Assembly (NCBI GenBank): GCA_016841365.1 | Contig: JAENZI010000001.1 | Span: forward strand, 310,001-374,000 | Direction: 5' to 3' | Length of the DNA stretch: 64,000 nt | DNA from: Anaerolineaceae bacterium | GTDB taxonomy: Bacteria; Chloroflexota; Anaerolineae; Anaerolineales; Anaerolineaceae | Shown: positions 5,398 through 30,581 of the stretch, in pieces | Position numbering within the stretch: the stretch's first letter is position 1 | How the letters are laid out: every line of letters starts with the position of its first letter | The notes under the pieces: model-generated | Databases searched by the model: none | Seen by the model: the letters and a program-made list of their open reading frames with translations, nothing else | Told to the model about the DNA's origin: nothing | Program-made: the position numbers and the translations under genes

Positions 5398-6978
5398 TCA
5401 AGCATCTGGGAGGGTGTAATATTTTCTCCAAATAGACCCATAGCGCTCAATTTCTTCATCCCAGGTTTGGTTAGACCATCCCAAGGGTTTCTGGATGATC
5501 TCGCGGATCGCGGCAATTTTGTCCAGGCCACCGTGTTCAAGCAAAATCCCCATGCGCACTCGACGAAGCAGGAGGTCATCAAGGTGAACCACGGCTTCGT
5601 TTTCCGCTGCCCATGCTAATTCAGCCCAAAATTGCGGCATTGGCTTGATGGGGCGGAGATGGTCTGGATTGGCAGTTTGGAAGAAAGTGTCGACATCTTT
5701 ACCCAGCCGGCCAGCCATCATGATCCAATCCGGGTCAGTCGCATCTTGGCGGTTTGCTGGCTTTGGATGGATAAAACAAGGTGCCCGATGATCGAATTTG
5801 GGTTCTCCTGGCAGACGATCACTGCAAAAGTTGAGCACATCTGCAGCCATGACCCGGAAGATGGTCAATTTGCCGCCAGCGACGGTGACCAATCCGTCTT
5901 CCTCCCAAACGGCATGGGCTCGCGACTCTTTAGACGGTGTAGGCGCATTGGTGTTGATCACCGGGCGCAAACCCGAAAATGTTGAGATGATGTCCTCATC
6001 ATCCACCGGGAATGCCGGAAAAGTATGCTGTGCGGCTTCCAGAAGATAGTCCACTTCCGAGCGTGTGATTCGGGTTTCATCTTCGTACTGGTCATGGTCA
6101 AGATCGGTGGTGCCAATCATCGTACGGTTTTCCCAAGGGATGGCAAACAATGCCCTGTTATCGCGTGGGTGCAGCATGGTCACTGCCGAGTGGATGGGTA
6201 GTTTATCCTGTGAAAAGATCAGGTGGCTGCCCCGTAGTCGGCGTAGCTTAGGCTGGCCATTGATGTTTGTGCGCATCTCGTCTGACCAGGGTCCTGTAGC
6301 GTTGATCACTACACCGCCGCGTATCTCCATCTGCGTCGGTTGCAGCATCCCGCTTGCGTCTTCGACCATTACACCTTCGACCCGGCCATTTTCTGATTTG
6401 ACTAAATTGCAAACCCTGGCGTAATTGATGGCTGATCCGCCAAAACGGATACCGTCCATGATGACGCGCAACACCAATTGTGAATCGTCCACCCGGGAGT
6501 CATAATACCGAACGCCGCCTATTAGATTTTGGCCGTCGATTGCCGGCAGGGCACGTTTGACACCCTCTCGACTGAGGTTGCTGTGCTGCCACTTGGGTGC
6601 CATCAGGTCATATACGATGACGCCGAGTTTCATCATATTCGTTTCGTGCTCACTGTCCTGATATGCAGGGAAGACAAAGGCAAGCGGATCGACCAACCCA
6701 TCAGATTCACGAATTAATCGTTCACGTTCTTTGACCGATTCCCTGACGACATCGAATTGCCGGTTTTTCAGGTAGCGGATGCCGCCATGCACAAGCTTTG
6801 ATGAGCGGCTGGAAGTCCCAAACCCAAAATCACGCGCCTCTAATAAAAGGACTCTGAGTCCTTTTTGTGCCGCCATATTGAAAATGCCTGCACCGGTGAT
6901 CCCTCCGCCTATAACAATGATGTCCCACGGTTGGTCAAGATCAGACCAGGTTTTCTCGCGCCAGGTTTTATTCAGCAT
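5398..6978 (-). CDS. glpD: FAD-dependent glycerol-3-phosphate dehydrogenase
   Basis: The 526-residue flavoprotein begins with the dinucleotide-binding motif VIGGGITGAGIF (around residues 21-32) and the GlpD-specific RDFGFGTSSRSSKLVHGGIRYL. A second FAD contact, INATGPWSDEM, and the C-terminal alpha-helical domain typical of GlpD follow. The enzyme oxidises sn-glycerol 3-phosphate to dihydroxyacetone phosphate, passing electrons to the quinone pool at the membrane. GGAG ten bases before the ATG supports the start. The gene is 14 bases downstream of the AGPS-like oxidase and upstream of the kinase, so the operon covers phosphorylation and oxidation of glycerol. Confidence 0.93.
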   Translation of the reverse strand: MLNKTWREKTWSDLDQPWDIIVIGGGITGAGIFNMAAQKGLRVLLLEARDFGFGTSSRSSKLVHGGIRYLKNRQFDVVRESVKERERLIRESDGLVDPLAFVFPAYQDSEHETNMMKLGVIVYDLMAPKWQHSNLSREGVKRALPAIDGQNLIGGVRYYDSRVDDSQLVLRVIMDGIRFGGSAINYARVCNLVKSENGRVEGVMVEDASGMLQPTQMEIRGGVVINATGPWSDEMRTNINGQPKLRRLRGSHLIFSQDKLPIHSAVTMLHPRDNRALFAIPWENRTMIGTTDLDHDQYEDETRITRSEVDYLLEAAQHTFPAFPVDDEDIISTFSGLRPVINTNAPTPSKESRAHAVWEEDGLVTVAGGKLTIFRVMAADVLNFCSDRLPGEPKFDHRAPCFIHPKPANRQDATDPDWIMMAGRLGKDVDTFFQTANPDHLRPIKPMPQFWAELAWAAENEAVVHLDDLLLRRVRMGILLEHGGLDKIAAIREIIQKPLGWSNQTWDEEIERYGSIWRKYYTLPDA

Positions 6979-17975: not shown

Positions 17976-18584
17976 TTAATGCCCGATAAGCGGTAAATAG
18001 ATTTGGTAGATCGGGGTGGATGTTTCGAGCACATTAATTGTGAAGGCTTTTTCGTAAAACAAGCCGCCTGAATCTGTTGTGCGAACGCGGATGGAATAGG
18101 TGGTTTGCTGGTCATAATCCAATATTTGGGAGGTGCGGAGCAGCGCGCCTGAGATATTGAAGGCGCTGTTCCCCGAATCACCCGCGCCACTGACCAGTGT
18201 GTAGATGAAAATGTCGCCCGCATCGGGGTCGGTGGTTGTCAGCGTGCCAACCTGCGTGTTGGCTGGCAACCCTTCTTCAATGGTGTTGTTGTCAAGCTGG
18301 ATATTCGTGGGTGCCTGGTTTTCAACGGTCAACCCGCCGCTCCAGAACCCGCTGGCGAGGGTGAAATCCCCGCCAGCACTCACACCGGCATCGGGCTGAC
18401 CGGCAGCACCACTCAGGGCATAGCCCCCGCCGCTGCTTGAACCACCCCCATCAATAGAGTGCCATGACAAATCAAACAGGCCCCCCGTTTGCGCCAGCAC
18501 CGGCACCACCGCAAGCAAGGTGATTAAAAGGACGGCAGGTGCCCACCAGGGAGTTTTAGGTAGGTTGTGCTTGATGTGTTTCAT
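17976..18584 (-). CDS. Secreted cadherin-like repeat protein
   Basis: The 202-residue protein has an N-terminal signal segment ([15 protein letters not shown]), a Ser/Gly stretch, then one cadherin-like beta-sandwich domain with [20 protein letters not shown] and [21 protein letters not shown], the latter carrying the calcium-type DxD elements. It ends in [11 protein letters not shown], a hydrophobic YLPLI ending that I recall from many Chloroflexota secreted proteins and that may be a sorting or processing signal. Its ATG overlaps the stop of the giant S74 protein (ATGA) and GGAGG precedes it, so the two secreted proteins are translated together and may interact. Confidence 0.75.
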
Positions 18585-21500
18585 AATTCACCTCCGGGCC
18601 GGCGGCGCACAAAGTACACACCACCGAAGACGAGCAAACCAACACCCAAAAGCCATTGGAAGGGGACAGCATCGGCGTGATTTTGGTGATTCCCTGCGTT
18701 CATCATTTGTTCGAGGGTGGTTAATCGTGCTTCAAGGTCATCCACCTGGGCTTTAAGCTCCTGGTTCTCAGCATACAAGCCCTGGATGGCAGCCAGTGCC
18801 ACACCGTCCGCGTCCATGCTGTTGATGAAATCGGCGCCTTCGCCGCCCAAACCCGCCACCAGGCTGTTGAATTCATCCGCCATCATGCCGATGTGGATGC
18901 TGGATTCGTCCTGGGATTTGTAATTCCAGGTGGTGATGGGGTATTCTGCCAGCGCCTCCAGCAGGGCAGCATTATCGACCGGTATGAAGTTCTCTTTGTG
19001 TTCACGGTTGCTGACATTGCTCCAGCCGCTGTCTCCTGCGGCGATATATGACCCTAAGTTCAAATCAGCACTCGTGTAGAAATACACGCCGCCAGTGGCA
19101 CGCGCCACCCAGCGGTTATCAACATCACAAATCACATCTGCCAGGGTGGAATCCCCCCAGACAAAGCAGCCAGGGTTGTTGGCTTTTGCCTGGGTGCCAG
19201 CGGCAAAGCTGAAGGTTCCCACGGCAGAATTACCATAGCCACCCGGGATAGCTGCAAGTGCCCCGCTGGCGGTATTGTCCTGACCCCCACCCACCGTGCT
19301 AAATTCACCGCTGGCAGTGTTTTCCTGCCCGCCCGCTACCGTGGCATAGGTGGCACTTGTGGGGTATGCATCATTGTCGCCAGCCTGGTTGCCGGCGCCG
19401 CCGCCCACCGTGCAGTAGTCATCGGTTGCATAGTTTGCCCGTAAAAGGGGATCGTCAGCATCCGGCTCATAGGGCCCGCCGCCGGAGATGGTGGTGTATG
19501 CCGCTGTGGCTTGGTTATAGTATCCCCCGCCAATTGTTGAACGAACACCGCTGGCGGTGTTGCTAATTCCGCCACCAATGGCACTAGCAATACCGCTGGT
19601 GGCGTTGCCCCCGCCGCCGCTAATGGTGCTGGTATATCCGCTGGCGGTGTTGCTATCCCCACCGCCAATTGTTGAATTACTACTACTGGCAACATTAAAT
19701 TGGCCTCCTGAAATTGTTGACATATAACCAGAGGCAGCATTATCGTACCCTCCACCCACAGTGCTAAAGCCTCCTGAAGCCTCGTTTAGTTCACCGCCAG
19801 CAACTGTTGCATACTCTTCACGTGCTCTATTATGTGTCCCCCCGCCAACGGTTGTATAAGCTGCTGAAGCATCGTTACTCCTTCCTCCGCCGATAGTAGC
19901 ATAATTGCTTAACAGAGGGTCTCCGTCATCCCATCCAGCCTGGTTGTTACCGCCGCCGCCGATCGTGCCGTAGTCATCAAAGACATTGTTGTTGCGGAAG
20001 GTTGGGAGTGCCGGGTCACTGGGTCCGCCACCGGCGATGGTCGCGTAAGCCGCATTGGCAAAGTTGTTCCAACCGCCGCCGATCGTGGCAAAAAGTCCGT
20101 TGGCGATATTGTCCTTGCCTCCACTGACCGTGGCGTAGGTGGCACTTGTGGGGTCTCCATCATTGTCGCCAGCATGGTTGCCGGCACCGCCGCCCACCGT
20201 GCAGTAGTCATCGGTTGCATAATTCGCCCTCAAGATAGGATTCTCAGCATCCAGGTCATAGGGTCCGCCGCCGGAGATGGTGGTGTATGCCGCTGTGGCT
20301 TGGTTATAGTATCCCCCTCCAATTGTTGAACGATCGCCGCTGGCGGTGTTGTCATAGCCACCACCAATGGCACTAGCAATACCGCTGGTGGCGTTGCCCC
20401 CGCCGCCAGCGATGGTAGATCCTCCACCGCTGGCGGTGTTGCTAGCCCCACCGCCAATTGTTGAATTACCTCCGCTGGCAACATTAACTTGACCTCCTGA
20501 AATTGTTGACATATAACCAGAGGCAGCATTATCGTACCCTCCACCCTCAGTGCTAAAGCCTCCTGAAGCCTCGTTTTGATAACCGCCAGCAACCGTTGCA
20601 AAATTTTCACGTGCTTCATTATCCTCCCCCCCACCAACGGTTGTAAAAGCTGCTGTAGCATAGTTAAATCTTCCTCCGCTGACGGTAGCATACTCGCTTA
20701 ACTGAGGGTCTCCATCATCCCATCCAGCCCGGTTGCCCCCACCGCCGCCGATAGTGCCGTAGTCATCAAAGATTTCGTTGTTGGAAGTGGTTGGGGATGC
20801 CAGGCTACTGGGTCCGCCGCCAGCGATGGTCGCGTAAGCCGCATTGGCAAAGTTGTTCCAACCGCCGCCGATTGTGGCAAAAAGTCCGCTGGCAGTGTTT
20901 TCCTGCCCGCCCGCTACCGTGGCGTAGGTGGCACTTGTGGGGTCTGCATCATTGTCGCCGGCCTGGTTGCCGCCGCCGCCGCCGATGGTGCCGTAGTCAT
21001 CAAAGATAGTGTTGTTGGTGGTGGTTGGGAATGCCGGGTCACTGGGTCCCCCACCGGATATGGTCGCGAAAGCCGCATTGGCAAAGTTGTTCCAACCGCC
21101 ACCGACGAAGGCGTAATGGCTATTCTGGGGGTCGATATCATTGCTCCCAGCCTGGTTGCCGGCGCCGCCGCCGATGGTGCCGTAATTATCAAAGATTGTG
21201 TTGGTTGAGCCGCCGCCCAAAAAGGCATACAGACCGCTGGCGGTGTTTCCCTGGCCGCCGCCCAAAAAAGCATAGTTACCGCTGGCGGTGTTGGCCGTGC
21301 CGCCGCCTAAAACGGCAAACGGACTGCTGGCAGTATTCCCAATTCCACCGCCCAGAACGGCATACAACCCGCTGGCTGTGTTCTGATATCCCCCGCCGAT
21401 GAGGCTGCGATTGGCGCTGGCGATGTTCAGATACCCGCCCGTGATGGCGGCGTAATCCCCTGAAGCCTGGTTAGCGGATCCGCCACTGATGGTGCTGGCA

Positions 21501-23659
21501 TATCCGCTGGTAGCGTTCGTGGTACCGCCGCCAACGGTGCTATTCGCGGCGCTGGCAGCATTTTGGAACCCGCCGCCCACTGTGGCATATGCAGCATCGG
21601 TTGCCGTGCCTGCGTTATCGCCTGCCTGGTTGCCGGCGCCCCCGCCCACCGTGCAGAAGTCATCGGTGGCACGATTGTTGGTTGTGGTGGGATTGCCAAG
21701 GTCGCTGGGTCCGCCACCGGACACCGTGGTGTATGCCGCCCCAGCAAGGTTGTAATACCCGCCGCTGATCGTTGCATAGTCGAAGTTCGCACTGTTATTC
21801 GTGCCGCCGCCAATTGCCGCAGATACCCCCGAGGCTGCGTTAGAAGCGCCGCCAGGGATGGCGGCGTATAAACCGCCGGCTGTATTTAAATATCCCCCGC
21901 CCAAAAAGGCATAACTGCCGCTGGCGGTGTTCTGATACCCCCCGCCGATGAGGCTGCGGTTGGCATTGGCGATGTTCTGGTAGCCGCCAGCGATGGCGGC
22001 GTAATCTCCTGAAGCCTGGTTATAGGATCCGCCACTGATGGTACTGGCATATCCGCTGGCAGCATTCGTGGTACCGCCGCCAATCGTTGTGTTTGAGGCA
22101 CTGGCAGTATTCAGGAAACCGCCACCCACCGTGGCATAAGTCGCATCGGTTGCCGTGCCGGCGTTATCACCTGCCTGGTTGCCGGCGCCCCCGCCCACCG
22201 TGCCGAAATCATCGGTTGCGGTGTTCTGTATGGACGAGGTTGGATTTTCCGGGTCGCTGGGTCCGCCGCCGGACACCGTGGTGTAAGCCGCCCCGGCAAG
22301 GTTGTAATACCCGCCGCCGACAACGGCGTAGAGACCGCTGGCGGTATTGGAGATGCCGCCGCCAATCACGGCTGAATCTCCCGCCTGGTTGCCGCCCCCG
22401 CCGCCCACCGTCCCGAAGATGCCTGTGACGCTGTTTTCCAACCCGGCACCCCCGCCGCCCGAGATGGTAGCGCCATGCAATCCCGTTGATAGCCAGTTGC
22501 CTGAAAAACCGCCGATCAGGTTGGGGCTGGTGGCATGTGGTTCAAAGCGGAAGACCCGTTCGCCTTTGACCTTGACCTCCAATGGCTGGTCGTCGCTGGT
22601 GCCAAGGTAGTTACTCCCTGGTGTGGTGTCGGCATTGCCGGTTAAAGACCATCCAACACTGCCCCCGCCGCTGACCGGTTCGCATACCACGCTGCCATCG
22701 GCGTTGATGGATTGGATGGCGTAACCCTCACCGCAGCCAGTGCCCACGCGGGCTTGCAGCACGGATAAGTCTGCATCGAATGCCGAGCCCGTAAGGGTCA
22801 GCCCTGTGCCCGCGGTGTAGGTGGTATTGTCATCCGTTTCACAGGTTACCGTGCCGTCTTGATCAATGGCGCGGATGGCACTGCCTGCCATACAGGTCTC
22901 GCTGACACGGCGCTGGATATATGTGGGGTCAGCAGACAGGGTCACGTCGCCAATGGTGCCGCCGCCTAACATTCCCGTGCCGGCAATTACAGCAGTGATA
23001 TCACCGGCGCCGCCCGCCACGGCTTCGCACAACACCGTCCCGTCCAGGTTGACCTGCCGGATGGCATAACCACTGCCGCAGCTCTCGCTGATGCGTGCCT
23101 GGATGGCGGTTGTGTCTACGGAGAAGGTTGTGGCGGAGAGGGTCAAACCCGTCCCGGCTGTGTAAGTGGTGTTGTCGTCAACCGCGTCTGCAAAGCCAGC
23201 GGGCATGCCAGTTATACCGGTCCAGGGCACCTGGTCAGCAAGTGCTGCAGTTTTTGAATATAAGGCGTAGGGCGCTGCTGAGAGAAATTGACGGGGTGAA
23301 AGCGGGGTAAAGGTACCCGTGCCCGCCGGGCAGCGCACGGCGATATCCAACCAGCGGTTTTCACCCTGAAAGGCACCGGGTCCATAATCCAGCTGGACCG
23401 TGAAATATCCCTCATTAATGGGGATGCCGGATAAGATCCGTTCGCCGATTTGTGCGCCTTCGGTGAGTGCGTCATACAGCCCAAAGGTGAAATCGCATGT
23501 GCCAGAATACGGGGTACCACTGTTCTCTAATTGACCCTGGAAGGTGAAGGCTGTGCTCAACGGTGTGCTTCTCGACGCTTGCGCAGCAGCCATTCCGGGT
23601 AAAAGAAAAAGTAAGATTAAGCCCATCAGGCAAAAGATGAAAGTAAATCTGCTCTTCAT
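18581..23659 (-). CDS. Giant repetitive surface protein with S74 intramolecular chaperone domain
   Basis: The 1692-residue protein starts at the ATG at 23659 (AAGGAG upstream). It has a signal peptide ending in MAAAQA, a domain of about 110 residues with [18 protein letters not shown], and linker repeats. From about residue 400 to 1480 it consists of about 15-residue units around (I/V)GGGxxNxASG, interrupted by longer spacers with [10 protein letters not shown]. The repeats suggest a stacked beta-roll like YadA-type heads. Next comes a peptidase S74 domain with the Ser/Lys dyad S1550 and K1555 (SNREHK), a coiled coil, and a C-terminal membrane helix (1667-1685) followed by RRR. S74 domains drive trimer assembly of phage tail spikes and then cleave themselves off. 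Here the product is probably a trimeric cell-surface fibre. Confidence 0.8.
19230..22440 (-). repeat. Long-period coding tandem duplications inside the S74 protein gene
   Basis: The element around TCATTGTCGCC recurs at 19371, 20160 and 20949, an exact 789-base period (263 codons). Upstream in the gene, TTGCCGTGCC recurs at 21601 and 22150, a 549-base period (183 codons). The shorter unit of about 45 bases (15 codons) is superimposed. Both long periods keep the reading frame, so copy number can change without breaking the gene. Confidence 0.85.
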
Positions 23660-23838
23660 GTCTGTTCTCCTTTTGTTGAAGCAATGTAATCCGAAGGACC
23701 GCACGATTAAAAAAAGACCCACGCCACCGGGGATATTCAGTGAGTGGGCTGCGTAGGATAGGACATCTCGACTGGGACTTTGCCCCAGGCTTACAGCAAT
23801 ATTAAATTATGGCTCTGATGGTTGGGCTTATGTTTGAT
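23660..23838 (-). promoter_or_regulatory. Structured 5' leader with attenuator, candidate riboswitch
   Basis: The transcript predicted from the promoter at 23845-23873 has about 180 bases before the start codon. It contains a small hairpin CTGGG-GCAAAGT-CCCAG (about 23780) in a conserved-looking purine-rich context and then an intrinsic terminator 45 bases before the ribosome binding site. I compared it by memory with c-di-GMP, SAM, TPP, cobalamin and THF aptamers and found no match, so the class is unassigned. Confidence 0.5.
23709..23748 (-). terminator. Intrinsic terminator inside the S74 gene leader
   Basis: On the minus strand CCCAC pairs with GTGGG (plus an inner CAC/GTG) and is followed directly by TC and seven T. 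It stands upstream of the gene's ribosome binding site, where it can only act as an attenuator. Confidence 0.65.
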
Positions 23839-24273: not shown

Positions 24274-25074
24274 TCAGGGTACGGTTCCAATTGCGTAGAA
24301 GGTTGGGATGAACAGGATGCGCTCCCGGTTGTGACGGGCACGCTGGTCAATGGCTTTAAATTCCGCCAGCCTTTCAGCCCTCAAATGGGATGCAAGGTCA
24401 TGCTGCAAAGCCATCCATTCGACCTCGTCTGGCTGTTCCCAGGTGGTTTGCGACCACAATGCCCCCAAAATGCCGACTTCAATGTCTTGCAAGCCGATTT
24501 GATGAAACAACTGACCGAGCCTGCGTCCAACAGCCACATGCGCGCCCTGGTTGCGAAGGGCTTGTGTTTGCAGTCCGCCCAATTCATCCAACGGTGGCGG
24601 AAAGTCAATCCGTGAAGGATGATCCGGTTCAGCCAGTGCAATGACGCTCCCCCCGGGGTGCGTCACACGCCGCATTTCCTGCAAGATTTGACGGGGGTGT
24701 TCGATCCACAATAAAAGGTAGTGGCACAGGGTGATCCCAAAGGTATGTTCCGCAAAGGGCAGGCGGTAGCCATCCGCTTGCGCCATCAATGCGGGGATAG
24801 GCTGATCTTGGGAGAAACGCAGGCTGAGTGGGTCAATGTCGATGCCGGTGAGTTGGTAATCGCCCTCCTGTTCCAAGCAAGTAAGCAGCGCGCCGGTCCC
24901 TGAGCCAACTTCAAGCACGTTGTGATTTACCTCAGAACCGGCTTTCTTGAGCAGGTAAGCCCGAATGTCAGCCGTCCACTGCGCCTGCTGCAGGTAACGC
25001 TGATGCCATCTTGCCAGTTCGTTTGCCTGATCGTCACCGGGGGTCACGAATGCTAATCCCAGATCGCTTCCCAT
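24274..25074 (-). CDS. Class I SAM-dependent methyltransferase in the radical SAM operon
   Basis: The protein of up to 266 residues has a seven-strand Rossmann methyltransferase fold. Motif I is HNVLEVGSGTGALLTCLE, the acidic residue that binds the SAM ribose is in GIDIDPLSLRF, motif IV is ITLCHYLLLW and motif VI is PGGSVIALAEPDH. The start is either ATG 25074, overlapping the preceding gene by 22 bases, or GTG 25047, five bases after that gene's stop; neither has a strong ribosome binding site, which fits translational coupling. As last gene of the operon with the Cys-Ala tail protein and two radical SAM homologues, it may methylate the same substrate. A small-molecule substrate cannot be excluded. 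Confidence 0.8.
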   Translation of the reverse strand: MGSDLGLAFVTPGDDQANELARWHQRYLQQAQWTADIRAYLLKKAGSEVNHNVLEVGSGTGALLTCLEQEGDYQLTGIDIDPLSLRFSQDQPIPALMAQADGYRLPFAEHTFGITLCHYLLLWIEHPRQILQEMRRVTHPGGSVIALAEPDHPSRIDFPPPLDELGGLQTQALRNQGAHVAVGRRLGQLFHQIGLQDIEVGILGALWSQTTWEQPDEVEWMALQHDLASHLRAERLAEFKAIDQRARHNRERILFIPTFYAIGTVP

Positions 25075-26204
25075 GGGTCTGTCAGCAGGTTGCCCAGCAC
25101 CCGGTCGTACATACCCTGTGCGGGTAAAACATCTCCATCTGGTTCGACATATAGCCAGGCTTTGCCTGCGCCTTCGGGCGGCTCCTGTGTCTCAGCGTTC
25201 TCTAATTCCAGTGAAACGGGGTTATTCCTCGAATAGGGCACCGGGAGATCCCAGACCAGCTCCAACTGCTGCACAGCGGCAAAGTCGCGCAAATTTTGCA
25301 GTTCCTCAGAAAGTCCGGCATCGGACGCACTCAGTGAGAGGGCGTTTGCCCCCATCTCAGCCAGGCGTGTGATATGCGGACGCAGGTTGTGTCCCTTTTC
25401 GAGGGTGAGGTGGACGGTTGTGTGGATGTCTTCAGGCAGGACTTTTGCCAGCGACTCCCATACGTTGGGGTTGTCCGGATCCAGGACAACCATCAAGTGA
25501 TCCAGACCGTTGAGCAGTAACTGCTGACGGAAATCATCATCCTTCAATCTCAGACCGTCTGTCAGCACACCTGTGACCAAACCCAGCTCTTCCGCCTTCA
25601 GGAGCAGTTCTGGTAAATCTTCTCGCAATGTCGGCTCGCCGCCGGTGAACAGGACGTGCGGAATGCCGATCTCGAACGCTTTTTGCAGGATGGTGACCCA
25701 CTCATCAGCCGTCAGCTCGCGATTGACCCGGTCGAGGGGTGCATGTTCGCTGTGGCTGCCTTCACCGACACGGTAGGTCAGGGCACAATCCAGTCGGTAA
25801 GGTGCAGCGATTTCTCCGGAGTAAGGTTCTTGCCTTTCAATATCAAAATAGGTGACGGGGTCAAGATCTGGTGTGTGAATGATTGTCTGGATCTGGTTGA
25901 GGAATTTGCCGAAGTCCAGCCGGGCTTGATCTTTTTCCACCTGGTAGCGGCGGGAAATTTCGTCCACAGCCTTATCCAAATCGTGTTTCTTGATAAAGTG
26001 ATAGGCGAATTCCGCCGCGGTTTGGTTGAGATGAAGTACGGTGGCGGCATTGATGATTAGGATGCCCGTACCGTCTTTCTCGATTCGAAGATGCAGCCGA
26101 TATTGCTCCTTCTCATCCGGCGGGGTTTGGTAACTGAACATGCCTGACGGGAGCGGTTCTTTTTCTGAAAATAAACGCTTGATGGATTGAAATAAGCTTG
26201 TCAT
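25053..26204 (-). CDS. Cysteine-less radical SAM pseudoenzyme with N-terminal PqqD-like domain
   Basis: The 383-residue protein is a paralogue of its upstream neighbour along its length. Residues about 40-110 form a PqqD-like peptide-recognition domain (LHLNQTAAEFAYHF, ISRRYQVEKDQARLDFGKFL). The radical SAM core keeps APYRLDCALTYR and the SAM-binding GGEPT (HVLFTGGEPTLREDLPEL). The three cluster cysteines are replaced: V146, S150 and E153 stand where the partner has C148, C152 and C155. The SPASM cysteines are also gone (GDVLPAQ for GDVLPCQ) and the last Cys-rich part is missing. Only one Cys (C140) remains in the protein. It cannot hold the 4Fe-4S cluster and probably acts as a scaffold or regulatory subunit. 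The start ATG 26204 has GGAG five bases upstream. Confidence 0.85.
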   Translation of the reverse strand: MTSLFQSIKRLFSEKEPLPSGMFSYQTPPDEKEQYRLHLRIEKDGTGILIINAATVLHLNQTAAEFAYHFIKKHDLDKAVDEISRRYQVEKDQARLDFGKFLNQIQTIIHTPDLDPVTYFDIERQEPYSGEIAAPYRLDCALTYRVGEGSHSEHAPLDRVNRELTADEWVTILQKAFEIGIPHVLFTGGEPTLREDLPELLLKAEELGLVTGVLTDGLRLKDDDFRQQLLLNGLDHLMVVLDPDNPNVWESLAKVLPEDIHTTVHLTLEKGHNLRPHITRLAEMGANALSLSASDAGLSEELQNLRDFAAVQQLELVWDLPVPYSRNNPVSLELENAETQEPPEGAGKAWLYVEPDGDVLPAQGMYDRVLGNLLTDPWEAIWD

Positions 26205-26215
26205 GTTCACTCCGT

Positions 26216-27592
26216 TCAATTGATGAACTCAAGATGATGGACTGGTTTTATGGTTTGGTGTTCTCTGGCTAAGGGGCAGCCGCCGCCGCATTCGATCAAA
26301 AAATCACAGGTGCGGCATCCTTCAGGGACATCTTCACGGTTGCGCAGTTTGAGCGCCAGCGGATGTTCCCAAATCTCTTTCCAGGGTTTTTCGAGGAAAT
26401 TGCCGAGGGATTCGTAATAAGATTGGCAGGGAAGGACATCGCCGTTGGGCTCAATGCACATATTGTACAGCGCAGCGGTGCAGCCCTTCACGCCCAATCC
26501 GAGCTGGATGGGGTTAAAATGGCAGTATTGTGTCGGCGTATACCAGATCAGACGCTGCTGATAAGAATCGGTGATGCGCCGTGCTGTTTCCAGCAGGTCC
26601 GGCAATTCTTCTTCGTGCAAGCCGGTGCCGACCTCTTTGCCTTTCCCGGCGTAGATCAGCGCATTAAGTCCCACAGTTGGGACACCAATCTCACCCAGGA
26701 AGTGCAGGGTTTGTTCAAGGCTTCCCCTGTTGTGGGTCAGCAGAGTGGTGTTCGTCATGATATACAGTTTTGAGGCGATCACATTTTTTAAGCCGGCGAC
26801 GGTTTCTTCCCATGCGCCTTTGGCGTTCACCATCCGGTCATGGATGGCTGCATCGTGTGACTCCAGAGTAATTTGGACGTGGTCCAACCCGGCATTGATC
26901 AGCGAGTCGAGATAATCCTGATCTGCAAGTTTTCGCCCGTTGGTGTTGAGCCCGGTGATCAAGCCGGTTTCCTCCGCATAAGCGACCAATTCCGGCAAAT
27001 CACGATAGAGGGTTGGTTCACCGCCGGTGAATACCACATGCGGGATTCTGAGCGACCAGATTTTGTCAATGGCTTTTTTCCATTGATCTGCAGACATTTC
27101 AGGAAAGGTGCGCAGTCGTGCATTGTAGCAATGGCTGCAATTATTGTTACAGCGGTAAGTGATCGCTAAATCCATGCGATACGGTGCACTGAGCTGGGCA
27201 CTGAAGGGTGCGGTGGTTTCAAGGTTCAGGTCACAAACCGGGCAAGCGCCATTCGGTTCAAGCAGTGTTTCGAGATTAAGACTGAAAATCAGGTAATCTT
27301 CTTGGGCTAAAGATTTTTTAACACGATATTGTTTTCTGAAAGCCCGTACGGCTTCCTTGAATGTAATCTCTTCAAGGTGCAGATAAGCCATAAACGCTGC
27401 GGAGGGGTTTAACTGAATCACGCGGTTGGCATTGATGATCAACAGCCCGCTGCCGTTCGGATCAATGCGTAGATGGATGCGGGATTTGCCTTCCGGTTCT
27501 TCACGCTGGTAATGATAGATACCTGGGTCAGGTGGCGCGGAGACTGAGATTGAACCTTTCAGGTTACCAAATAATGATTTAAGAGATTTCAT
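26216..27592 (-). CDS. PqqD-radical SAM-SPASM peptide-modifying enzyme, putative
   Basis: The 458-residue protein has an N-terminal PqqD-like domain (about residues 45-115; IQLNPSAAFMAYLHL, FRKQYRVKKSLAQEDYLIF), a CPVC pair, and a radical SAM core with C148-x3-C152-x2-C155 (RCNNNCSHCYN) and the SAM-contacting GGEPT. The C-terminal SPASM domain carries Cys in GCTAALYNMC, LPCQ, CRTCDF and ECGGGC, enough for two auxiliary clusters. This order (recognition domain, radical SAM, SPASM) is typical of enzymes that install thioether or carbon-carbon crosslinks in ribosomal peptides. The upstream gene encodes a protein with a seven-cysteine tail, the obvious candidate substrate. Its ribosome binding site lies in a hairpin (27606-27633). 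Confidence 0.85.
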   Translation of the reverse strand: MKSLKSLFGNLKGSISVSAPPDPGIYHYQREEPEGKSRIHLRIDPNGSGLLIINANRVIQLNPSAAFMAYLHLEEITFKEAVRAFRKQYRVKKSLAQEDYLIFSLNLETLLEPNGACPVCDLNLETTAPFSAQLSAPYRMDLAITYRCNNNCSHCYNARLRTFPEMSADQWKKAIDKIWSLRIPHVVFTGGEPTLYRDLPELVAYAEETGLITGLNTNGRKLADQDYLDSLINAGLDHVQITLESHDAAIHDRMVNAKGAWEETVAGLKNVIASKLYIMTNTTLLTHNRGSLEQTLHFLGEIGVPTVGLNALIYAGKGKEVGTGLHEEELPDLLETARRITDSYQQRLIWYTPTQYCHFNPIQLGLGVKGCTAALYNMCIEPNGDVLPCQSYYESLGNFLEKPWKEIWEHPLALKLRNREDVPEGCRTCDFLIECGGGCPLAREHQTIKPVHHLEFIN

Positions 27593-27652: not shown

Positions 27653-29410
27653 TTAGCGGCCGCCGCCGGCACAGGCACAAGCACAGCCGGCACAGGCACA
27701 GGCACAGGCGCAAGAGCTTCCGCCGCCGCCCCTGAATCCGCCCGAGCCGCTCCTGGTTGTGGTGCTGACGGGTATCGGGTTGGTGCGGTTGGTGATGCCA
27801 CTGGTGAATGCGGTCAGGTTGCCGACAACGCCAGCAGCCATGCCTGTTGCGCCGTTGATCACATTTGCGGCGAAATCAGAACCCGGGATATGTGGCAGTG
27901 AAGCCTGCCCGCCGGTGGATGGCTTGCCGACAGATACGCCGCCTGTTCCAACAGGGGTGACGCCGCCGCCAATTTGCCGGCGGTAGGTGGGTGAATAACG
28001 CGGCCACCACATGGGCACGAAAACCGGTCCGCCTGTGAAGGTGCGGCGTGTCCGGTCCTGATATTCGTTATCCAACATCGTCCATTCAAGCGTCTGATTG
28101 TAATTTTCGCTTTTGACTTCCGGTGTTTCAGCCTCTTCGACCATCTGCCATGCCCGGCGCATAATGTCTTCATAATAGGCGATGGATTCCTTCGTCGAGA
28201 AACCTTTCATCTTGCGAGAAACGCTGTTTACCAGATCGACCATCATCTTCTGCAAGGCAGTCCGCCGCTCTTTTTCAGGGCCTCTGAACGCTTCCAAGAA
28301 ATCCACTTCATAAGGATGCAGATTTTCAGGCAATTGCTCTGGAACCTCCAATTTAAGCGGGTCTTGCTGCAGAACAATCGCTGTTTCTTTTTTAAGCGTT
28401 CCGAAGAGGATCATCGTGAGGACTTTATCCATTGGTTGTTCCATCAGGATCGCCGCTTCAACCGCCGTCAGACCGCGTTTGATCCCATGTCCCTCGATTT
28501 TCATCTTGGGTGGCAGGTATTTCATCTTGCGTTTTTGTGCCCCAACAGTGCCCTGGTAAATGCTCCAGCCGAAAATTGCCATAAAGAACAGGCCGAACCC
28601 AAAGCAGCAAATATTCCCGCCTAATAAACTCCAGATCCAACCGGCAAAGCCTGGGCTGCTGGTTGAAGAATCGGGCTCAATGAAAACGGGTTTTTCGGCA
28701 ACAGTGTCTGCAGGTACGTAAGCCGCCGGGAAGGCACCGCCAAAGGTGTACCTGGAGTGCAGGTCTGCGTTATCCGTGAACCAATAGTAGTAGACCCGGT
28801 CACCTTCAGCCGTGCGCCCGATCTCGGTTGGTTCTGACTGCCCGGGCCAATTTTCGGGTGTGTAGTACACGCCCTCTTCATCGCCGACACCCGGGGGCAA
28901 GATCAGGGCGACTGCATATTCTGTGGACCTGCTTTTATCTGATTGAGAGTCAAAATAATTTGGCATCAGGTTAAAGCTGACGTAATTTTCCTGGTCACCC
29001 TGGTCATATGGATAAAGAAAATTCTGAATACCAGGGATCCACACGGATACGGTGCCAGAGCTCCCGGGCTGGATGGCATTCGACCCCAGATTTAGGGCGA
29101 ATCCAATGTCAACATAGGGCGAGTCTTCAATTTGAGTGATCGGCTGACCGTTGACATCTGCCTCGATCAGGCTTCGATTATAAGCAGATGAGGGCAAGCC
29201 AATGTCCACATACTCCATAGGGTCAGCCGAGGGATCGTTCTGGAACTCGTAGATATAGTTCAGGGATAAAGTGCCGTCTTCTTCAATGTAGGCATTTACC
29301 TCCGCATATGTGACTTCGAAAAGATAGACATCTTGTGCGGATGCAGGCGAAGGCAGTGCGAACAGGCTGAAAAACAGCAGTAATAGGAGAAAATGTCGAT
29401 ATTTATTCAT
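27653..29410 (-). CDS. DUF2207-like membrane protein ending in a Cys-Ala repeat tail
   Basis: The 585-residue protein has a signal peptide (to about residue 25, ALPSPASA), an extracytoplasmic beta-rich domain (26-250) of DUF2207 type, one strong membrane segment (256-285, with a CC pair) and a cytoplasmic region with a winged-helix-like part (300-400; GLTAVEAAILMEQPMDKVL). A Gly/Thr-rich linker leads to the C-terminal tail, where CACACACAGCACACAGGG occupies residues 567-584 before the final Arg. It holds seven Cys (567, 569, 571, 573, 576, 578, 580) separated by Ala or Ala-Gly. The predicted topology leaves this tail in the cytoplasm, reachable by the radical SAM protein encoded next. I read it as the substrate of that enzyme; metal binding by the tail is the main alternative. 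Confidence 0.8.
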   Translation of the reverse strand: MNKYRHFLLLLLFFSLFALPSPASAQDVYLFEVTYAEVNAYIEEDGTLSLNYIYEFQNDPSADPMEYVDIGLPSSAYNRSLIEADVNGQPITQIEDSPYVDIGFALNLGSNAIQPGSSGTVSVWIPGIQNFLYPYDQGDQENYVSFNLMPNYFDSQSDKSRSTEYAVALILPPGVGDEEGVYYTPENWPGQSEPTEIGRTAEGDRVYYYWFTDNADLHSRYTFGGAFPAAYVPADTVAEKPVFIEPDSSTSSPGFAGWIWSLLGGNICCFGFGLFFMAIFGWSIYQGTVGAQKRKMKYLPPKMKIEGHGIKRGLTAVEAAILMEQPMDKVLTMILFGTLKKETAIVLQQDPLKLEVPEQLPENLHPYEVDFLEAFRGPEKERRTALQKMMVDLVNSVSRKMKGFSTKESIAYYEDIMRRAWQMVEEAETPEVKSENYNQTLEWTMLDNEYQDRTRRTFTGGPVFVPMWWPRYSPTYRRQIGGGVTPVGTGGVSVGKPSTGGQASLPHIPGSDFAANVINGATGMAAGVVGNLTAFTSGITNRTNPIPVSTTTRSGSGGFRGGGGSSCACACACAGCACACAGGGR

Positions 29411-29413
29411 AGA

Positions 29414-29782
29414 TCACCATTTTGGTTCTTCAGTTAATTGGTAGGTTGTTCCACAATGCGGGCATTCCACCACAGGTGCGCCAGCTATCATCTTAACATC
29501 ATCAGATGTGATCGGGCCACCGCAGGACTGGCACTTGATGGTATCCATGCCTACCTCACCCGGGAGGTCGATGTTGTAATTGACAATCTGGTCACCGGCT
29601 TTTTGGGGCGGGCTGAGTTTTGTCCCGACAAAGATCAAGATAAACCCGATCCCCAGGCCAATGATGCCGATAATCAGCCAGCTTGGAGAGCCTTCAGGGC
29701 TGAATGCGCCTAAAATGAAAAGAAAGGCAAAGACGATAAAAATCGCCGCTGTGACAAATGCAATAATTCTTCCTGCTTTCAT
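29414..29782 (-). CDS. Small membrane protein with C-terminal zinc ribbon
   Basis: The 122-residue protein has two predicted membrane helices (about 6-27 and 35-54) followed by a soluble zinc ribbon with CQSCGGP near residue 85 and CPHCGTTY near 108. Two CxxC pairs 20-odd residues apart fit one zinc site. Its stop lies three bases before the ATG of the Cys-Ala tail protein, so the two are translated together and probably form a membrane assembly. It is the first gene of the five-gene operon. No named family is recognised. Confidence 0.7.
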   Translation of the reverse strand: MKAGRIIAFVTAAIFIVFAFLFILGAFSPEGSPSWLIIGIIGLGIGFILIFVGTKLSPPQKAGDQIVNYNIDLPGEVGMDTIKCQSCGGPITSDDVKMIAGAPVVECPHCGTTYQLTEEPKW

Positions 29783-29899: not shown

Positions 29900-29905
29900 T
29901 ATAAT
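29900..29905 (+). promoter_or_regulatory. -10 box of the rex promoter
   Basis: A perfect TATAAT lies 58 bases before the rex start at 29964. The -35 region is weak. An in-frame ATG at 29904 falls inside this box and so cannot be the translation start. Confidence 0.45.
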
Positions 29906-29963
29906 GAGATTTATTACAGAAACCATAACTAAATTCGACTCAATAATTATACAGGAATTTCAC

Positions 29964-30581
29964 ATGAAAGACGATTTTGTTCCGGATGTTGTGATCAGTC
30001 GATTGCCATTGTATCTGCAAGAGCTTAATCATCTGGCAAAAGAGGGCCTGCATACAGTATCTTCGAAGGTGATGGCTGCCCGACTGGGAACGACTGCTGC
30101 ACAGATCAGGAAGGACCTTTCATATTTTGGCGGGTTTGGAAAACAGGGCAGCGGGTATCAAATTTATGATTTGATCGAGCAACTCCAAAAAATATTGAAT
30201 ATGGACCATGTTTGGCAGGTGGTGGTGGTCGGGGCTGGCGATCTGGGCCGGGCTTTGACCCATTACCAGGGCTTTGCCAGTCAGGGCATTGAAATCGTAG
30301 CACTTTTCGATGTTGACCCAAAGCTTGTTGGCACGCAGGTTGGATCAATCGCTGTGCGGCATGTGGATGAAATGGAAGATGAATTAAAAAACTTGGGAAT
30401 TAAGATCGCGATATTGACTGTTCCAGGCGGTGTCGCTCAGGAAGTGGCAGAAAAATTGGTCAAGTTTGGCGTTAGAGCGATATTAAACTATGCCCCTGTC
30501 TCACTGATGCTGCCAGAAGAGGTGCATGTCCAGCATATTGACCCGGTGCCGCATATTCAAAAGATGATGTATTACCTGTAA
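29964..30581 (+). CDS. rex: Redox-sensing transcriptional repressor Rex
   Basis: The 205-residue protein starts at the ATG at 29964 with AGGAA eleven bases upstream. It has an N-terminal winged helix (SRLPLYLQELNHLAKEG, GTTAAQIRKDLSYFGGFGKQG) and a C-terminal Rossmann domain with VVVVGAGDLGRALTHY for NADH binding, closing with the domain-swapped helix HIQKMMYYL. Rex senses the NADH/NAD ratio and represses fermentation and respiration genes when NAD predominates. This agrees with an anaerobic or facultative lifestyle. Its end overlaps the stop of the opposite gene by ten bases. No Rex operator was seen in its own promoter. Confidence 0.93.
   Translation: MKDDFVPDVVISRLPLYLQELNHLAKEGLHTVSSKVMAARLGTTAAQIRKDLSYFGGFGKQGSGYQIYDLIEQLQKILNMDHVWQVVVVGAGDLGRALTHYQGFASQGIEIVALFDVDPKLVGTQVGSIAVRHVDEMEDELKNLGIKIAILTVPGGVAQEVAEKLVKFGVRAILNYAPVSLMLPEEVHVQHIDPVPHIQKMMYYL

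Follow-up and report, generated by a model that had tools for sequence, protein, structure and literature searches.

A conserved cysteine-alanine tail on a bacterial membrane protein and the neighbouring radical-SAM enzyme proposed to modify it

What purpose may be served by a strip of regularly alternating cysteines placed at the very end of a membrane protein, and is there an enzyme dedicated to it? The window analysed here (the whole stretch of 64,000 nucleotides) contains an open reading frame (27653-29410, (-) strand) coding for a protein of 585 amino acids, the C-terminus of which is ...RSGSGGFRGGGGSS-CACACACAGCACACAGGGR followed by the stop codon. The tail CACACACAGCACACAGGGR corresponds to the residues 567 to 585 (27656-27712, (-)) and is proposed to be a core-like modification site. 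It contains seven cysteines in strict alternation with alanine, with a single glycine between the fourth and the fifth Cys-Ala unit, and two cysteines are found in the remaining 566 residues. A linker rich in Gly and Ser (residues 554-566; 27713-27751, (-)), variable in length and sequence among the homologues, precedes the tail. A sequence-only reading of this locus had reported the residues 567 to 584 as CACACACAGCACACAGGG and described seven alternating cysteines after a Gly-rich linker; the letters and the arrangement both agree with the translation, where CACACACAGCACACAGGG is followed by Arg585 and the stop codon.

Directly downstream of the tail gene is located a gene for a radical SAM/SPASM enzyme of 458 amino acids (26216-27592, (-)), the proposed maturase of the tail. 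The Radical_SAM domain (PF04055, 99.1 bits for a cut-off of 29.5) and the SPASM domain (PF13186, 40.4 bits for a cut-off of 21.5) are both present. The radical SAM motif CNNNCSHC is found at residues 148-155 (27128-27151, (-)) and the SPASM domain (auxiliary Fe-S) at residues 371-430 (26303-26482, (-)). The Pfam PqqD profile scores below threshold in this enzyme (17.5 bits, cut-off 23.4) and reaches 27.8 bits in the archaeal homologue L042 and 29.0 bits in the pseudo-partner presented below, both above the cut-off. In the AlphaFold model (mean pLDDT 81), the residues 24-111 (27260-27523, (-)) form an RRE-like N-terminus composed of four strands (24-61) then three helices (63-111), and the enzyme is on this basis predicted to bear an RRE (PqqD-like) domain. 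The closest solved structures are SkfB, PqqE and SuiB by sequence and SkfB, SuiB and CteB by fold, the sactionine maturase SkfB being the nearest by both; all four are enzymes that mature peptides. None of the NCBIfam radical-SAM equivalogs (NirJ2, PqqE, SkfB, StsB, ACGX system etc.) reached its cut-off with the window, archaeal or clostridial enzymes; the best score was that of NirJ2 (139.1, cut-off 500). Two candidate systems were rejected. The ACGX-repeat system gave a weak match far below its cut-off and no papers on it were found. The 25 best NCBIfam matches of the clostridial enzymes, none of which reached its cut-off, did not include CcpM/CLI_3235, a clostridial Cys-rich peptide system, and no useful paper was found. 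The clostridial enzymes have a reduced SPASM half, so that the chemistry may differ between the branches.

The other genes of the operon display the same orientation. A pseudo-radical-SAM protein of 388 amino acids (25053-26219, (-)) has kept the PqqD/RRE domain and lost the motif CX3CX2C, which is absent in all its homologues: this motif is conserved in the 74 full-length relatives of the active enzyme (74/74) versus none of the 25 pseudo-proteins, which form two groups. A SAM-dependent class I methyltransferase (24274-25074, (-)) is conserved in the majority of those tail loci of Chloroflexota and archaea that have enough flanking sequence. Upstream of the tail gene, a membrane protein of 122 amino acids with a four-Cys zinc ribbon (29414-29782, (-)) is a conserved partner which, like the methyltransferase, recurs in many loci; in Clostridia, the zinc ribbon is located inside the tail protein itself. 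The Rex redox repressor gene (29904-30581, (+)), divergent from the operon, was rejected as a component of the system, being its neighbour only in its own genus.

The gene of the radical-SAM/SPASM enzyme adjoins, or is near, the tail gene in nearly all the Cys-Ala tail loci with enough flank, in five phyla. Among 249 genomes of the class, the tail pattern was detected in 31 and the reversed-pattern control in none (0/249), whereas the enzyme, counted with an E value below 1e-100, was detected in 34. Both are present in 30 genomes, the tail alone in one and the enzyme alone in four (Fisher p about 3e-33; this p-value and that given below for the second tail type ignore phylogeny and are descriptive only). 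The match of the tail-only genome (G044) is probably spurious, because no open reading frame of at least 60 amino acids carries it, and most of the four enzyme-only genomes have the enzyme near a contig end or an incomplete assembly. In six genomes (G100, G173, G198, G229, G234 and G239) the two genes are on different contigs, so that their pairing is more than an effect of adjacency, and several genomes contain two carriers per enzyme. That the pairing is near-obligate is well supported by these genomic counts.

A second type of tail was detected in distant homologues (E 1e-4 to 1e-8), which end in about 50 residues of (HSAC)n and have an adjacent radical-SAM gene. These HSAC-tailed, DUF2207-type membrane proteins were observed in the loci L157-L166, L188, L189, L204-L206, L208 and L209. 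The HSAC pattern is present in 29 of the 249 genomes (control 0), with 27 genomes containing both this tail and its own branch of the enzyme, two the tail only and two the enzyme only (p about 1.5e-31). No genome among the 249 has both tail types. In a tree of 98 rows, the tail type follows the enzyme clades, changing six times for seven groups, the minimum possible, in a quick reconstruction where the long HSAC and clostridial branches may attract each other.

The sequence-only reading had left three roles for the tail, a crosslinked peptide, a metal-binding strip or a site of cofactor attachment. Of these, a peptide that is crosslinked or modified in another way has the best support, since the gene of an RRE-radical-SAM/SPASM enzyme is directly downstream and co-occurs with the tail, also across contigs. 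Our best overall explanation, to which we give a probability of about 0.62, is that the tail is a portable, cytosolic, core-peptide-like element modified by the neighbouring enzyme on a protein staying in the cell. The Cys-Ala strip would be a dedicated substrate, similar to the core of a RiPP, carried by a resident membrane protein. The RRE would bind a conserved segment that precedes the linker and is composed of helices (residues 510-543; 27782-27883, (-)), a candidate leader-like recognition element. In the homologues this segment is written LPGxxFA..V..G......V......FTxxVTxxTNPxP, and it is retained in a kinase fusion (L202) described below. The enzyme would act on the strip in the cytoplasm, most likely abstracting a hydrogen from alanine and forming several thioether bridges between cysteines and alanine carbons. 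The product would be a short, rigid and multi-bridged tip on a flexible Gly linker, in a place from which it could report on the extracytoplasmic domain or respond to it; its role could be for instance in sensing, scaffolding or redox. For the pseudo-radical-SAM protein, which bears an RRE, the probable role is that of a partner binding to the enzyme; the methyltransferase probably performs a second tailoring step. Considered separately, modification of the tail by the enzyme is highly probable and permanent attachment of the modified tail is likely; for thioether chemistry, once modification is granted, the chances appear even.

Alanine is a known acceptor in ruminococcin C1, where a Cys5-Ala12 S-to-C-alpha bridge is formed (PMC8172795), and experiments with d4-Ala labelling were performed on RumMC2 (PMC8188230). 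Against the thioether model, sactipeptides use varied acceptors and a hairpin topology, and AlbA rejects Ala acceptor mutants (PMC8172795); a strictly alternating Cys-Ala strip is also without direct precedent. It is conceivable, although rather unlikely, that the enzyme modifies the tail without thioether bridging, by C-C or C-O links, by oxidation of cysteine as in anaerobic sulfatase maturation, by epimerisation, or by methylation with the neighbouring methyltransferase. Many chemistries are carried out on the radical-SAM/SPASM fold, SuiB (C-C) and PqqE are nearly as close to the enzyme as SkfB, and the conservation of the methyltransferase in many loci goes in the same direction; however, the nearest structure by sequence and fold remains a sactionine synthase, and Cys, paired with Ala, is the sole reactive feature common to all tails.

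The proposed system, with thioether bridges on a resident protein, displays similarities with several known ones. As in the sactipeptide maturases (SkfB, AlbA, RumMC2, TrnC/TrnD), an enzyme with RRE, radical SAM and SPASM domains is found beside a Cys-rich substrate. In thuricin CD, TrnC and TrnD form a complex via their RREs and only the radical-SAM activity of TrnC is strictly essential (PMC12093266), an organization in which two enzymes and one essential activity resemble the pair found here. The differences are that the proposed substrate, with its strict Cys-Ala alternation, forms the C-terminus of a large membrane protein, that no protease or exporter is conserved, and that the partner is a true pseudo-enzyme without the cluster motif. 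The radical-SAM enzyme QhpD forms thioether bridges in a resident protein, not in a released peptide (PMC7876137, PMC8172795). Its target QhpC (quinohemoprotein amine dehydrogenase gamma subunit) is however a small subunit of an enzyme, has Cys-Asp/Glu bridges and loses its leader, whereas the target here would be the tip of a membrane protein where Ala is the sole repeated neighbour available. Finally, the TIGR04222 proteins are membrane proteins with unstructured, Gly/Ser-rich and Cys-bearing C-termini, predicted to be substrates of an adjacent RiPP enzyme (PMC12452194). That enzyme is an MNIO rather than a radical-SAM protein and the TIGR04222 tail is predicted to be periplasmic; the TIGR04222 profile has no match in the window protein, and no MNIO (DUF692) gene was detected with Pfam among the five operon genes.

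The carrier protein consists of a signal peptide, a beta-rich extracytoplasmic domain (residues 31-228 approximately; 28727-29320, (-)) and a single transmembrane helix, extending over the residues 255-294 in the model (28529-28648, (-)) and 259-277 by hydropathy. The stretch following the helix has a net positive charge (+3 to +5) in most homologues, which fits a cytoplasmic tail; in the window protein, KRK sits just past the 15 residues that were counted. Hydropathy, the positive-inside rule and the model thus support a position of the tail on the cytosolic side of the membrane. Radical-SAM enzymes are oxygen-sensitive and cytosolic, and this, together with the hydropathy, speaks for the cytoplasmic location advanced by the sequence-only reading. 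Comparison of the carrier profile with PDB sequences gave no convincing match, and the fold search returned M1-peptidase and ribophorin-like beta domains for the ectodomain with uninformative values (TM about 0.2).

A conventional RiPP, in which the tail would be cleaved and exported as a small product, seems improbable. RRE-radical-SAM enzymes usually serve RiPPs, with the same logic as RumMC2 and TrnC/D (PMC8188230, PMC12093266), but the carrier is a membrane protein of 585 amino acids with its tail toward the cytoplasm, and the near-invariant sequence differs from that of typical diversifying bacteriocins. Around the loci sampled, we found no conserved family of proteases or exporters, so that release of the tail is not expected. 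A small precursor, a leader removed by a protease and an exported product, which together characterize RiPPs, are not what is observed.

The designation DUF2207 used in the sequence-only reading applies only loosely to the protein. PF09972 (DUF2207) has no match in the window protein at an E value of 1, and none was found in its whole genome. The HSAC-tailed distant homologues L157 and L160 do pass the Pfam cut-off, and the profiles of the window family and of the DUF2207-like HSAC proteins align with a probability of 99.8% (E 5e-29). Ordinary DUF2207 proteins share with the carrier a signal peptide, an ectodomain, a transmembrane helix, a cytosolic domain and a Gly/Ser-rich end (PMC10457818), but are devoid of the Cys tail and of the enzyme. 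In S. mutans, one of them has an effect on stress tolerance and on biofilm (PMC10457818), which is a distant hint only. A link to 5-thiohistidine, suggested by a DUF2207 gene near an OvoA homologue, was dismissed by the very paper describing that neighbourhood.

DUF2207 membership alone was rejected as an explanation of the tail. Among 80 genomes of the class, 58 contain ordinary DUF2207 proteins. A set of 20 of them was used as negative control (one being a fragment): nearly all end in a Gly/Ser-rich sequence, a terminal Cys strip is found in none of them, and in 19 of the 20 cases no related radical-SAM gene lies within about 5 kb. The exception is L246, where the nearby enzyme is that of the HSAC locus of the same genome, a few kb away. 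Because ordinary members have neither the tail nor the enzyme nearby, the Cys tail appears to be grafted onto a Gly-rich end only where the enzyme is present. Its modular, portable character is well supported by sequence comparison. A Ser/Thr kinase-AAA_16 protein of 1143 amino acids (G048:C353, corresponding to L202:978-4406, (+)) was also observed to end in CACACACAGCACACAGGGR. This fusion contains the tail, the upstream helix and a TNPPP segment, and is encoded beside the enzyme and the methyltransferase; a standard carrier is present on another contig of the same genome.

A search of the 249 genomes recovered homologues of the carrier in 43 of them. From the alignment of 37 homologues (28-72% identity, mean column identity 36%), we observe that 14 of the 30 invariant columns fall in the tail, namely Cys569, Ala570, Cys571, Ala572, Cys576, Ala577, Cys578, Ala579, Cys580, Ala581, Gly582, Gly583, Gly584 and Arg585. 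Close full-length homologues share the tail type even at 33-45% identity. The general form of the tail is (CA)n[G](CA)m-GGGR, with the variants CACACACAGCACACAGGGR (22 cases), CACACAGCACACACAGGGR (10), CACACACACAGCACACAGGGR (6), CACACACACACAGGGR (4, in archaea) and others (6). Free drift of the tail length and of the number of cysteines, an outcome that the sequence-only reading had set against its own proposal, was looked for among the compared carriers: the linker drifts (11 to 30 residues after the motif TNPxP), whereas neither the Cys-Ala alternation nor the GGGR end varies and the number of cysteines stays between five and eight, so that the tail withstood this test. The identical tail of 19 amino acids present in 28 homologues is encoded by 28 different nucleotide sequences, with a mean of 11.6 differences over 57 nucleotides, all synonymous. 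Selection on the tail at the protein level is well supported by these comparisons.

The tail could also be an unmodified thiolate strip binding a metal (copper, zinc or Fe-S), with the radical-SAM gene serving another purpose. Seven free thiols in a Cys-rich tail could simply bind metal, the partner gene encodes a zinc ribbon, and the HSAC tail is rich in His, a good metal ligand. We nevertheless consider this very doubtful, given the near-obligate co-occurrence with two distinct branches of RRE-radical-SAM peptide maturase and a strict alternation with invariant GGGR that is tighter than metal-thiolate proteins need. A repeat artefact of the DNA or a low-complexity drift of a Gly-rich end, brought to mind by TRF, which scores the tail DNA as a short tandem repeat with a unit of 6 nucleotides, has a negligible probability and is rejected, because the 28 nucleotide sequences encode one amino-acid tail, the reversed pattern is absent from the 249 genomes and the Gly-rich ends of ordinary DUF2207 proteins contain no Cys strip.

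A homology-blind scan for (Cys-Ala)x4 in the DNA of 85,000 species genomes recovered at least 119 stretches. After sorting by reading frame, at least about 25 true tail genes are found among the matches listed, the rest being chance frames and microsatellites; the distribution outside the class is a lower bound. Among the matches listed, GGGR at the very end is found in Chloroflexota, Thermoplasmatota (Methanomassiliicoccales and another Thermoplasmatota), Heimdallarchaeota and Fermentibacterota (Sabulitectum). The clostridial tails (Lachnospiraceae, Oscillospiraceae and other Clostridia) have, among the same matches, an extension GGGRAGCSxKDFYxT past GGGR, and their carriers align with the window family across the ectodomain (profile comparison, 99.8%). 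The archaeal and clostridial tails lack the central Gly found in those of Chloroflexota. Four pattern matches came from viral contigs and one of them is real: a relative of the f51-type carrier bears the short tail CACACAGGGR (5863-5888 of the IMG/VR contig L212). The others are spurious, and a phage origin of the tail was rejected; the contig labelled as viral is probably host DNA or the edge of a provirus.

Most of what is known about radical-SAM peptide enzymes comes from cofactors and small secreted peptides. The tail, a highly constant sequence found in both bacteria and archaea, points to a resident use of such enzymes, on a membrane protein that has a domain outside the cytoplasm, and offers a first functional entry point to some of the DUF2207-like proteins. 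Since one repeated dipeptide is an unusually simple substrate, the bond and the role of the pseudo-radical-SAM partner should be directly testable in vitro. More tentatively, and with odds slightly below even, we propose that RRE-radical-SAM enzymes, in some cases accompanied by a pseudo-enzyme, form a system widespread in bacteria and archaea which would build multi-bridged Cys-Ala tips, and separately His-Ser-Ala-Cys tips, on membrane proteins staying in the cell and on at least one kinase of the signalling type; these tips, with a novel crosslink topology, would be a permanent part of the protein and not a released product. No named family or paper describing the tail-enzyme system was found in the open-access literature.

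Some other sequences were also observed. A protein of 878 amino acids (L002:679-3315, (-)), whose gene is located some 6 kb to the left of where the window begins, combines a kinase, a homologue of the ectodomain of the window protein and an FGE-sulfatase domain, without the tail. A homologue of the pseudo-radical-SAM protein (L192:2601-3743) belongs to a genome, G192, where no tail or active enzyme was detected and where the locus is possibly decaying. Finally, the window contains (18581-23722, (-)) a gene for a protein of 1713 amino acids in which GGGxxNxASGxxSTIGGG-like units are repeated and a C-terminal segment resembles an S74-type chaperone; tandem repeats are located at 19547-19669 and 21198-21382.
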